Part shown: positions 8,327 to 38,710 of the stretch, one piece after another
Position numbering within the stretch: the stretch's first letter is position 1
Layout: each line of letters opens with the position of its first letter
NCBI GenBank assembly: GCA_003576795.1
Contig: QEVN01000004.1
Span: forward strand, 1 to 40,644
Direction: 5' to 3'
DNA from: Burkholderiales bacterium
Lineage (GTDB): Bacteria; Pseudomonadota; Gammaproteobacteria; Burkholderiales; Burkholderiaceae_E
Length of the DNA stretch: 40,644 nucleotides
Made by a program: the position numbers and the translations under genes
Notes under the pieces: model-generated
The model's database searches: none
What the model saw: the letters and a program-made list of their open reading frames with translations, nothing else
Told to the model about the DNA's origin: nothing

Positions 8327-8331
8327 CCGTG

Positions 8332-8763
8332 ATGAAACCGCTCGCTCCCTGGCTGCTCTTCTCGCTCGGCTCGGCGTTCTTCGCCGGCCTCACCGCGATC
8401 CTCGGCAAGCTCGGCGTCGAGGGATTGAACTCGAACCTGGCGACGCTGATCCGCACCATCGTCGTCTTCCTCGTCACCGCCGCCATCGTCTCGCTGCGCG
8501 GCGAGTGGCAGATGCCGGCGGAGATCGCCCGCCGTCCGCTCGTGTTCCTGCTGCTCTCGGGCGTTGCCACCGGGCTGTCGTGGCTCTGCTACTACCGTGC
8601 GCTGCAGCTCGCGCCCGCGTCGCTCGTCGCGCCGATCGACAAGCTGAGCGTCGCCTTCGCCATCGTGCTGGGGGTCGTCGTGCTGGGCGAGCCGATGAGC
8701 TGGAGGCTGGCGCTCGGCGGGGCGCTCGTCGTGGCGGGGGCGTTGGTGATTGCGGGGGCGTAG
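8332..8763 (+). CDS. Half-size EamA-family membrane protein
   Basis: This 143-residue protein corresponds to one EamA repeat with about five hydrophobic helices (WLLFSLGSAFFAGLTAILGK at the start, SLVAPIDKLSVAFAIVLGVVVLGEP near 105-128). Single-repeat members are thought to work as dimers. It follows the full-length transporter by 16 bases. The ORF stop lies 11 bases before a 70-nt repeated element shared with the end of the HAD gene. Substrate unknown. Confidence 0.85.
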   Translation: MKPLAPWLLFSLGSAFFAGLTAILGKLGVEGLNSNLATLIRTIVVFLVTAAIVSLRGEWQMPAEIARRPLVFLLLSGVATGLSWLCYYRALQLAPASLVAPIDKLSVAFAIVLGVVVLGEPMSWRLALGGALVVAGALVIAGA

Positions 8764-8774
8764 GGGGCAAACCC

Positions 8775-8844
8775 GGGCTACAAGAACGAGCGTTTTCCGA
8801 CGTGGAACGCATTCCATAGCGCAAACGGCTACATCTGGTAGCCC
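8775..8844. repeat. Boxed 70-nt repeat element, copy A
   Basis: This stretch matches 38167-38236 at 47 of 70 positions without any gap. The matches fall in blocks: GCTACAA, AGCGTTTTC, CGTGGAA-N3-ATTCCA, and GCTACAT then GTAGCCC. Outer ends GGGCTAC/GTAGCCC are inverted, and the last 20 bases form a small hairpin (GGCTAC / GTAGCC). It lies between convergent genes, and the last codons and stop of the HAD gene fall within it. A bidirectional terminator or a REP-like mobile repeat are both possible. Confidence 0.7.
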
Positions 8845-9537: not shown

Positions 9538-10668
9538 TCACCGCTGCCCCTGCGTCGTATCCCCGAACAGTCCCCGATGTTCGCGCGGCTCGCTGCGCCA
9601 GTACTGCCGCGGCGCCTCCACCTTCGCGCCCAGCTCCGCCGCCGCGTGCCACGGCCAGCGCGGGTCGTAGAGCATCGCCCGGCCCAATGCCACCAGATCC
9701 GCCTGCCCGGAAGCGACGATCTCCTCGGCCTGCCGCGGCTCGGTGATCATCCCGACCGCCATCACGCGCGTATCGGGCACCTCGCGCCGGATCGCCTCCG
9801 CGAAGGGCAGCTGGTAGCCGGGCCGCAGCGCGATCTTCTGCAGCGGCGAGATGCCGCCGCTCGAGGCGTCGATCCAGTCCACGCCCAGCTGCGCGCAGGC
9901 GCGCGCGAAGACGATCGCGTCGGGCAGGTCGAAGCGCTGCGCGGCGGGCAGGTCGTCGCGCCAGTCGGTGGCCGAGATGCGCACGCCGAGCGGCTTGTGC
10001 ACGGGCCACGCCGCGCGCATCGCGGCGATCACCTCGAGGGGCCAGCGCATCCGGTTCTCAGGCGACCCGCCGTATTCGTCCTCGCGCAGGTTCGACAGCG
10101 GCCACAGGAACTGGTGCAGCAGGTAGCCGTGCGCGGCGTGCACCTCGATCGCGTCGAGCCCCAGCCGGTCGGCGCGGTGCACGGACTCGACGAAGCGCAT
10201 CTTCAGCGCGTCCAGCTCGTCGCGCGACAGCGCGTGCGGCGCGGGCTCGTCCTCGGAGTAGGAAGCCGCGCTGGGCGCCGCCCGTTGCCAGCCGCCCGCA
10301 TCGACGCCGATCAGCTTGCCGCCCTCCCACGGGCGCGCGCTCGACGCCTTGCGGCCGGCGTGCGCGAGCTGGATGCCGATCGGCGCCTGCGAGACGCCGC
10401 GCACGGTGGCCAGCGTGCGAGCGAGCGCCTCCTCGGTGGCGTCGTCGTACAGCCCGAGATCGCCCCAGGTGATGCGCCCGACCGGCTCCACCGCCGTCGC
10501 CTCGATCATCACGAGGCCGACGCCGCCCAGGGCGAGATGCCCGAGGTGCACGGAGTGCCAGGGTTGCGCGCACCCCTCCACCGCCGAGTACTGGCACATC
10601 GGCGAGACGACGATGCGGTTGGGGAGCACGAGCGAGCGCAGCTGCAGCGGAGCGAATAGCGTGGACAT
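9538..10668 (-). CDS. NADH:flavin oxidoreductase, Old Yellow Enzyme family (YqjM-like)
   Basis: The 376-residue FMN-dependent TIM-barrel enzyme reduces activated C=C bonds. It resembles the YqjM/thermophilic-like class: C25 and Y27 in SPMCQYSA, substrate-binding H177 and H180 in EVHAAHGYLLHQF, and DEYGGSPENRMRWPLEV. The C-terminal phosphate-binding part reads ADLVALGRAMLYDPRWPWHAA. The physiological substrate is unknown. It is divergent from clpB with about 150 bases between the two starts. Confidence 0.92.
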   Translation of the reverse strand: MSTLFAPLQLRSLVLPNRIVVSPMCQYSAVEGCAQPWHSVHLGHLALGGVGLVMIEATAVEPVGRITWGDLGLYDDATEEALARTLATVRGVSQAPIGIQLAHAGRKASSARPWEGGKLIGVDAGGWQRAAPSAASYSEDEPAPHALSRDELDALKMRFVESVHRADRLGLDAIEVHAAHGYLLHQFLWPLSNLREDEYGGSPENRMRWPLEVIAAMRAAWPVHKPLGVRISATDWRDDLPAAQRFDLPDAIVFARACAQLGVDWIDASSGGISPLQKIALRPGYQLPFAEAIRREVPDTRVMAVGMITEPRQAEEIVASGQADLVALGRAMLYDPRWPWHAAAELGAKVEAPRQYWRSEPREHRGLFGDTTQGQR

Positions 10669-10816: not shown

Positions 10817-13432
<2,616 letters not shown>

Positions 13433-13462: not shown

Positions 13463-13674
13463 CGGCAGGTTCGGGCGGCGTCGTCGAAGCCGCGGCAGCG
13501 GGGAGGGCGGTGTGCCGGCCTGTTGGCCGGACGCGTCGTCGCCCGTTGCGTCGGCGCGCCGTGTAGAGCTGCATTTCCTCTCGCGTAACGAACTGCGCGG
13601 TCGGAAGCGCTGCGTTATGCAGCGCGGGCAGGGGCTAGCGGAGGCGTGAGTTCCGAAGATATGGCGATGACGCG
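13463..13674. other. Non-coding spacer between clpB and accessory patch
   Basis: I see no convincing gene here. It holds two more perfect hairpins: CCGGCC-TGTT-GGCCGG at 13515-13530 and GCGCTGC-GTTAT-GCAGCGC at 13607-13625. The second is embedded in a longer imperfect inverted repeat from 13583. Confidence 0.5.
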
Positions 13675-38166: not shown

Positions 38167-38236
38167 GAGCTACAAACTGAAGCGTTTTCGCTCGTGGAAT
38201 CGATTCCACGAGCCGAGTCGCTACATTTCGTAGCCC
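38167..38236. repeat. Boxed 70-nt repeat element, copy B
   Basis: This is the second copy of the element at 8775-8844, with the same length and block spacing. Here the inner part CTCGTGGAATCGATTCCACGAG is a perfect 22-base palindrome, and GCTAC-ATTTC-GTAGC forms a terminal hairpin. It lies between the convergent ends of tex and vapC. Confidence 0.7.
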
Positions 38237-38299: not shown

Positions 38300-38710
38300 T
38301 CAGACCTCGATGGTCTTGCTGAACGGATTTCTGATCTCCAGACTGCGCTCCACGATGAGACCGTCGTGCATGTCCTCGGACCAGAGTCGCGTGCAGCCAC
38401 TAACCAGGGCCGCTGCGACGATCATGCTGTCGTAGACGGACAGCCGGTATTTCTCGCCGAGCGCAGCGCCGACGTCGTGCATTTCGATGGTGAGATCGAC
38501 GACAGCGCACAGTTTCCGAATCCCGTGAAGGAATGCGCCCGCTTCCCGCCAGGACATACCGGCCTTGCGGACGCAGTTGACCAGCGTCTCGTTCAGAACC
38601 TGCACGCTGATGACCCCGCCTTGGGTCAGCAGCTTTTCTGCACGGTCGGCTTTTTTGCCGTTGTCGAGCAGGTAAAGAATGACATTAGTGTCGAGGAAGT
38701 CAGCGGGCAT
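38300..38710 (-). CDS. vapC: PIN-domain ribonuclease toxin (VapC family)
   Basis: The 136-residue PIN toxin has acidic residues D7 (FLDTNVILYLL), E41 (VLNETLVNCV), D94 (SVYDSMIVAAAL) and D113/D116 (WSEDMHDG). The set is complete, so it is probably active as an RNase. It overlaps its antitoxin gene by 11 bases. It differs from the PIN toxin at 13822-14298 in length and in its antitoxin type. Confidence 0.92.
   Translation of the reverse strand: MPADFLDTNVILYLLDNGKKADRAEKLLTQGGVISVQVLNETLVNCVRKAGMSWREAGAFLHGIRKLCAVVDLTIEMHDVGAALGEKYRLSVYDSMIVAAALVSGCTRLWSEDMHDGLIVERSLEIRNPFSKTIEV

Follow-up and report, generated by a model that had tools for sequence, protein, structure and literature searches.

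The window, i.e. the whole 40,644-nucleotide stretch of DNA that was analyzed, belongs to a MAG (G000) of 2.59 Mb in 209 contigs, which is 83% complete. It contains two 70-nt boxes, copies A and B of a palindromic element, and a third, degenerate match to the same element. Together with the genes that flank the two boxes these are disposed as follows:

8329..8763, + strand: EamA-type transporter ORF (PF00892), left neighbor of copy A
8775..8844, + strand: copy A of the palindromic element; palindrome core 8777-8842, GCTAC...GTAGC; 60.9 bits, E 4e-10 in its own genome
8829..9500, - strand: HAD-superfamily phosphatase (PF13419), right neighbor of copy A; stop at 8829-8831
13556..13625, - strand: third, degenerate match; 28 bits, E 0.007 in its own genome
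35681..38101, + strand: tex, Tex family S1 RNA-binding protein (PF22706, PF16921, PF00575), left neighbor of copy B
38167..38236, + strand: copy B of the palindromic element; core 38169-38234; 83.4 bits, E 5e-15
38300..38710, - strand: PIN-domain gene (PF01850), right neighbor of copy B

An earlier note on this DNA had described the two boxes as being of equal length and identical at 47 of 70 positions without gaps, which is reproduced here; their placement between convergent genes likewise holds, copy A lying between the EamA ORF and the HAD phosphatase gene and copy B between tex and the PIN-domain gene. As the note had also stated, copy A provides the HAD phosphatase with its final codons and TAG stop, as read directly from the DNA. 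When the window is scanned with copy A on both strands, the highest score elsewhere is that of copy B (47 matching positions on the + strand and 42 on the - strand), and the next unrelated place scores 35/70. Copy A and its reverse complement are identical at 48 of the 70 positions, indicating an imperfect palindrome, and the folding of both strands that the note had advised gave, for copies A and B alike, structures more stable than those of dinucleotide-shuffled sequences (z -2.3 to -6.8). The degenerate match lies 123 bp past the stop of a gene at 10817-13432 (+), its right-hand neighbor being uncertain. No Rfam family reaches its gathering score in the window, and around copy A there are chance-level matches only.

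Anatomy and distribution of the element

A blastn search with copy B recovered 22 rows in the window's own genome. A covariance model (R1) built from 13 copies aligned without gaps gave, with the two strands counted separately, at least 67 rows at E<=1, which correspond to at least 38 distinct places after merging of strands, and at least 29 distinct places at E<=0.001; these own-genome counts are lower bounds, since scoring covered 150 of 962 candidates and a later scan recovered one further place (C109:2033). Thus, the genome-wide profile scan envisaged by the earlier note confirms that further copies exist.

For the analysis of anatomy and covariation we used 70 copies scoring at least 43 bits from eight genomes and one further contig, the set left of 177 strand-wise matches once weaker copies, overlapping loci and duplicates on the reverse strand had been removed; several of these copies are closely related (e.g. 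those from G009 and WYBR01000091.1, identical at 66/70 positions). The usual skeleton in this set is a 66-nt imperfect palindrome, in which a GCWWC box, a 5-nt spacer and a GWWGC box are followed by about 36 nt around GTGGAANNNNTTCCAC and then by a repeat of both boxes. The element is thus one continuous palindrome with a center of about 4 nt and with the box present four times, and conservation drops within about one base of the 70-nt ends (69 copies). In the consensus of each genome the boxes shift together, being GCTAC/GTAGC in the window's own genome and GCAAC/GTTGC in G005 and G009. Across the 70 copies long-range pairing of the boxes is seen in 93/140 cases against a shuffled mean of 45, and local pairing in 77/140 against a shuffled mean of 40. 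A fold with three hairpins (clover-leaf), which the 13 initial copies had suggested, was set aside upon finding that a single long hairpin pairs at least equally well on the 70 copies; given these two counts we claim no preference between the folds. The copies have a mean G+C of 55% as against 68% for the window.

A GT[AG]G tetranucleotide at the inner foot of the hairpin on either strand, the mark of canonical GTAG REPs, is found in 17/70 copies (15/23 in the window's own genome), so that the family as a whole falls outside the canonical GTAG REPs; the commonest foot overall is GTTG or GATG.

The distribution of the element is narrow. R1 has matches in 8/18 genomes of the genus, the window's own included, none in the 56 other genomes of the family (74 searched), and none in 368 other genomes drawn from the class (369 searched) in a less sensitive scan, wherein 13 candidates were scored per genome and the window's own genome gave 13 rows; the larger searches were in general less sensitive. 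A distant blastn search with copy B recovered no copy on plasmids, and the exact degenerate core was not found in viral contigs. Outside the genus the element is present on one contig, WYBR01000091.1, from a MAG binned as Vicinamibacteraceae. This contig encodes a RAYT that is 95% identical to that of G009, with copies of the element on both sides, pointing to either misbinning or a recent transfer. By their contig titles the RAYT-bearing relatives are Burkholderiales or Burkholderiaceae MAGs.

Position relative to genes and differences between relatives

The position of the copies was assessed against home-made gene calls based on codon-position G+C, which missed some genes, including a RelB/ParE pair at C100 and a RAYT in locus L062. 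In the window's own genome 35 copies were considered, leaving out C120:4732, C75:16947 and C131:5987 (E 0.01-0.49) as well as C109:2033. Convergent genes surround 25 of these, co-directional genes 5 and divergent genes 2, with 3 at contig edges. Of the 32 copies that could be classified, 25 are thus convergent, as compared with 20 of 130 gene pairs in a control taken from 20 contigs (about every tenth number, with two picks shifted by one) among those without a listed copy, a choice that may understate the convergent share of the genome. The 25 convergent copies occupy 22 intervals (two each in C100, C203 and C135), so that not all are independent, and their number may be 24 of 32, since the missed RelB/ParE pair makes C100:1874 probably co-directional. 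Where both neighbors lie within 250 bp, 9/12 copies are convergent and none divergent. Similarly, of 40 gene ends close to a copy 35 are 3' ends, as against 60% for control positions (p 1.5e-4). None of the 35 copies lies wholly inside a called gene, and two extend 16 bp into the end of one.

A different picture emerges from regions of G005, G009, G011 and G017, where 25 of 35 copies lie between co-directional genes, 5 between convergent and 2 between divergent ones, with 1 intragenic and 2 at an edge. These regions are largely islands near a RAYT, with genes that by eye resemble those of exopolysaccharide synthesis. Hence, the position bias noted earlier for the two boxes extends to convergent junctions and gene 3' ends across their own genome, and does not carry over to the islands of the relatives. 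The repeat is thus dispersed, mainly extragenic and palindromic; it is an insert that is tolerated where genes end, and its preference for convergent junctions is limited to the window's own genome.

Clusters of copies were observed at G005:C1:2080001-2180000 and G009:C42:8000-27999 in islands judged exopolysaccharide-like by eye, each containing some genes of toxin-antitoxin type and a RAYT gene, which in G005 is split. Among the ORFs near copies (150/178 scanned) the best 25 of 73 families are ordinary and nearly all single-member. Pfam analysis of ten further proteins near copies, picked by eye, placed eight in toxin-antitoxin-type or HTH families and one in PIN_3, and gave nothing for the remaining one. 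At G000:C100:1874-2727 two copies in the same orientation, identical at 69/70 positions, bracket genes for a RelB/PaaA2 antitoxin and a ParE toxin; this RelB/ParE interval measures 962 bp versus 586 bp in G017 and also differs in sequence. Possibly, these copies and the gene pair moved or were duplicated as a unit.

Comparison with the two nearest relatives, G017 and G011, showed both to be without copy A at its site. From the stop of the EamA ORF to a common CAGCAA there are 13 nt in G017 versus 80 nt in the window, i.e. 67 bp less, and there is no evident target duplication; in G011 the site has a short unrelated stretch and no element. Among 14 HAD loci fetched from other genomes none has an R1 match at E<=1, with the HAD-EamA synteny being seen in G011 and G017 only. 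The PIN-side flank of copy B has no contiguous match in the relatives, so that it offers no clean empty site. This polymorphism, resolved cleanly at one site (copy A), is consistent with mobility of the element. A further copy, C45:10383, is common to the window's own genome and G017, where it is degenerate (27.8 bits), and some copies have therefore simply been inherited. The corresponding place in G011 (G011:C1:189145-191800) has about 1.4 kb of other sequence, and hence this junction seems to receive different insertions in different species.

RAYT genes associated with the element

A RAYT gene was first noticed among the copies of the G009 cluster, and G000:C45 and G011:C28 proved to have similar ones. 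With a subfamily profile built from these three proteins, members were recovered in five genomes of the genus, namely G000 (1), G005 (1), G009 (1), G011 (3) and G017 (2), making with WYBR01000091.1 nine loci in total; a more distant match, G017:C46, was left out. These proteins are about 325 residues long and display HVH and RYIHLNP motifs. They match the NCBIfam profile REP_Tyr_transpos (NF047646) with E 5e-11 and 42.6 bits, which is below its cut-off of 80; the Pfam Y1_Tnp model matches two of the three proteins below its cut-off (E 2.7e-4 and 1.4e-3) and has no match in the third. The predicted structure (mean pLDDT 78.5) shows additional C-terminal helices, and its best Foldseek match is 4er8, a RAYT bound to a REP hairpin (probability 1.00, E 3.8e-3), no fold match reaching E 0.001. 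Taken together, the motifs, the NCBIfam profile and the fold match characterize the encoded protein as a predicted HUH/Tyr RAYT, in which the C-terminal helices could represent an HTH extension.

At five of the nine loci (G009, G005, G011:C28, G017:C82 and WYBR01000091.1) copies of at least 43 bits are present on both sides, at distances of 60-160 bp from the matched RAYT stretch. The other four are not bracketed by strong copies: at G011:C5 and G017:C21 the nearby R1 matches are weak (22-31 bits); the G000:C45 gene is next to a different palindrome, X, with two X copies on its 3' side and the nearest R1 copy about 650 bp upstream; and the G011:C1 gene has a palindrome 190 bp downstream that by eye is X-like. 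A tree of the RAYTs, from which the split G005 gene was left out, groups the six R1-type and R1-like proteins at 89/91 and pairs G000:C45 weakly with G011:C1 (83/77). Thus, the G000:C45 gene, the only RAYT of the subfamily found in the window's own MAG, belongs to another branch. The search for a RAYT gene that the earlier note recommended hence found genes bracketed by copies in several related genomes, and an unbracketed one in the window's own genome.

Element copies are present in 5/5 RAYT-positive genomes of the genus versus 3/13 of those without a RAYT (Fisher p 0.0065), and in 4/4 versus 4/14 (p 0.023, computed by hand) if only R1-type or R1-like RAYTs are counted (G005, G009, G011, G017), both statistics ignoring phylogeny. 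Three genomes, G012, G013 and G014, have copies of the element and no RAYT detected by the subfamily profile. The R1-type RAYT of G011 and G017 occupies the interval between two genes identified by eye as sucC and recX, next to recA, and the same flanks are 219 bp apart in G005 and 126 bp apart in G015, with no room for a RAYT. The R1-type RAYT is therefore itself site-variable, present there in G011 and G017 and absent there in G005 and G015. In the window's own genome contig C141 starts at the 3' end of recA and there is no match to the sucC side, so that this locus is unassembled and failure to find an R1-type RAYT in the MAG is uninformative. The adjacency of gene and element, the differing partners of the RAYT branches and the co-occurrence of RAYT and element collectively suggest a link between the element and the RAYT.

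Probable origin and comparison with known repeats

The above observations indicate that the element is, with high probability, a miniature mobile palindrome of the REP/TIR kind that is non-autonomous and presumably mobilized by a RAYT. Of the three candidates offered by the earlier note, a RAYT-moved REP is the one favored by the dispersed copies, the bias to 3' ends and convergent junctions in the window's own genome, the RAYT genes bracketed in related genomes and the site that is empty in close relatives; the other two, a bidirectional terminator and a protein-bound site, are not borne out. Published TnpA-REP/RAYT biochemistry provides the basis from which we infer the likely steps. In single-stranded form, for example on the lagging-strand template, the element would fold into a hairpin, which the RAYT might recognize by its GTWG-like foot boxes, cutting and rejoining beside the hairpin to copy or move the element. 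As each strand of the palindrome carries a foot, either of the two could serve as the substrate. Copies would also build up near the RAYT gene, and those at convergent junctions could be tolerated and kept because they disturb neither promoters nor operons. The element may in addition have a secondary effect on transcript ends.

A more elaborate version of this scenario, which we consider rather unlikely, posits a strand-symmetric RAYT, a concerted switch of the foot and insertion where transcription converges. Here, a RAYT with an extra C-terminal domain would use either strand of a single palindrome with a foot box on both; the foot would have switched in concert among sister species (GTAG in the window's own genome, GTTG in G005 and G009), with all four boxes of the consensus changing together; and converging transcription would itself expose the target, making it the preferred site of insertion.

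Alternatively, the element might be a bidirectional terminator or a stabilizer of mRNA 3' ends that is selected for between convergent genes, its spread being incidental. In keeping with this proposal, copies in the window's own genome strongly favor convergent junctions and the 3' ends of genes, both strands form a stable hairpin, and both long-range and local box pairing exceed shuffles in the 70 copies. We nevertheless judge it improbable, as a pattern scan of the sites of copies A and B found no T-tract terminator hairpin around either of them, and the junction of copy A is without the element in G017 and G011. Moreover, the element was found in one genus only, in 8 of its 18 genomes, its copies in the regions from the relatives lie mostly between co-directional genes, and it brackets a transposase gene.

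Still less probable is a protein-binding chromosomal site, such as an operator or a nucleoid or terminus site. The dyad center of the element, GTGGAATCGATTCCAC, is highly conserved and may resemble a dyad operator, and many of the copies in G005 cluster at about 2.085-2.19 Mb of contig C1. Against this, the four central bases are variable (TCGA, TGCG, CGCA and others), and the boxes vary with matching changes, a pattern that fits a hairpin better than a fixed site for a protein. The patchy, lineage-specific presence of the element, with no match in 10/18 genomes of the genus, also disfavors a conserved protein-bound site. The G005 cluster starts at a RAYT gene, and most of it is in DNA of lower G+C. 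A chromosome-terminus site, considered on account of this cluster and a change of orientation in it, was rejected given that start and the near-palindromic nature of the element, which defines orientation only weakly.

The least credible proposal is that the copies are integron-like (attC-like) recombination sites between gene cassettes: the runs of copies in G005, many with spacings of 0.3-3 kb, and the RelB/PaaA2-ParE pair bracketed by two direct, 69/70 identical copies in the window's own genome are compatible with it, but attC core sites have the form RYYYAAC ... GTTRRRY, whereas the consensus ends of the element are GTAGCNC or GTTGCG, not GTTRRRY, and the repeat is tied to a RAYT.

Returning to the RAYT-mobilized palindrome, comparison with known systems places it close to the TIRYTs or TIRtrons, in which RAYT-like genes are flanked by long terminal repeats, some of them self-complementary and dispersed (Di Nocera et al. 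2013, PMC3733652). As in these, a RAYT-like gene is here flanked by long, self-complementary inverted repeats other than GTAG REPs, which are also dispersed. The per-genome consensus of the element does not contain the GGGGWSAS sequence that some TIRs have in common. It further differs from TIRtrons in its sequence, which is new in the searches made, in its restriction to one uncultured genus and in its strong convergent bias in one genome.

With the GTAG REPs and REPtrons the element shares the bracketing of the RAYT by inverted palindromes and the gathering of copies near the RAYT gene, which is described for REPs of the betaproteobacterium Thauera (Nunvar et al. 2010, PMC2817692). Likewise, REPs adjoin gene 3' ends and often supply a TAG stop, as copy A does, and arrays of GTAG repeats are found beside exopolysaccharide genes in Thauera (both PMC3733652). 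Recognition by TnpA-REP is reported to be strand-specific, with GTAG in a guide role (PMC8266576). The element departs from GTAG REPs in its foot, which is mostly GTTG or GATG and present on both strands, and in its longer palindrome; its RAYT, of about 325 residues, departs from those of the GTAG REPtrons in its extra C-terminal helices. Double-foot REPs (TnpA-Y1 subclass 2.4), described along with RAYT subclasses without identified REPs by Quentin et al. 2018 (PMC6006769), resemble the element in that both ends of a single palindrome carry a GT[AG]G foot together with its complement. The element differs from them in having the box four times, with the two middle bases variable. REPINs consist of two REP hairpins joined by a spacer, and differ in this from the element, which is one continuous palindrome with a center of about 4 nt. 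REPINs (PMC3116915) are short mobile palindromes that depend on a RAYT, as the element probably is as well.

Five core strings of the element are absent from the papers searched, and the family was not found in the literature searched on RAYT/TIRYT/REPtron systems and on Burkholderia repeats. Thus, the element is a real RAYT-associated palindromic repeat family, new in the searches made and of a kind already known. It adds a RAYT-linked palindrome family from an uncultured Burkholderiaceae genus, in which related RAYTs are accompanied by palindromes with matched substitutions in their foot boxes (GTAG, GTTG, GATG, GAAG), offering natural material on how RAYTs read their repeats, while the excess at convergent ends in one genome, and not in the islands of the relatives, provides a case for distinguishing target choice from selection.

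The palindrome X encountered next to the G000:C45 RAYT represents a second dispersed palindromic family of about 74 nt, with the arms GACTTGTCC... and ...GGGCAAGTC. Its two copies near that gene lie at L104:928-1001 and 1260-1333, and others are present at G000:C113:9747-9819 and C109:1877-1952, on G011:C1, C5, C8, C13 and C16, and on G017:C1 and C86. Two of these X copies occur near R1 copies, on C113 (9747, with R1 at 9883) and on C109 (1877, with R1 at 1503 and 2033).
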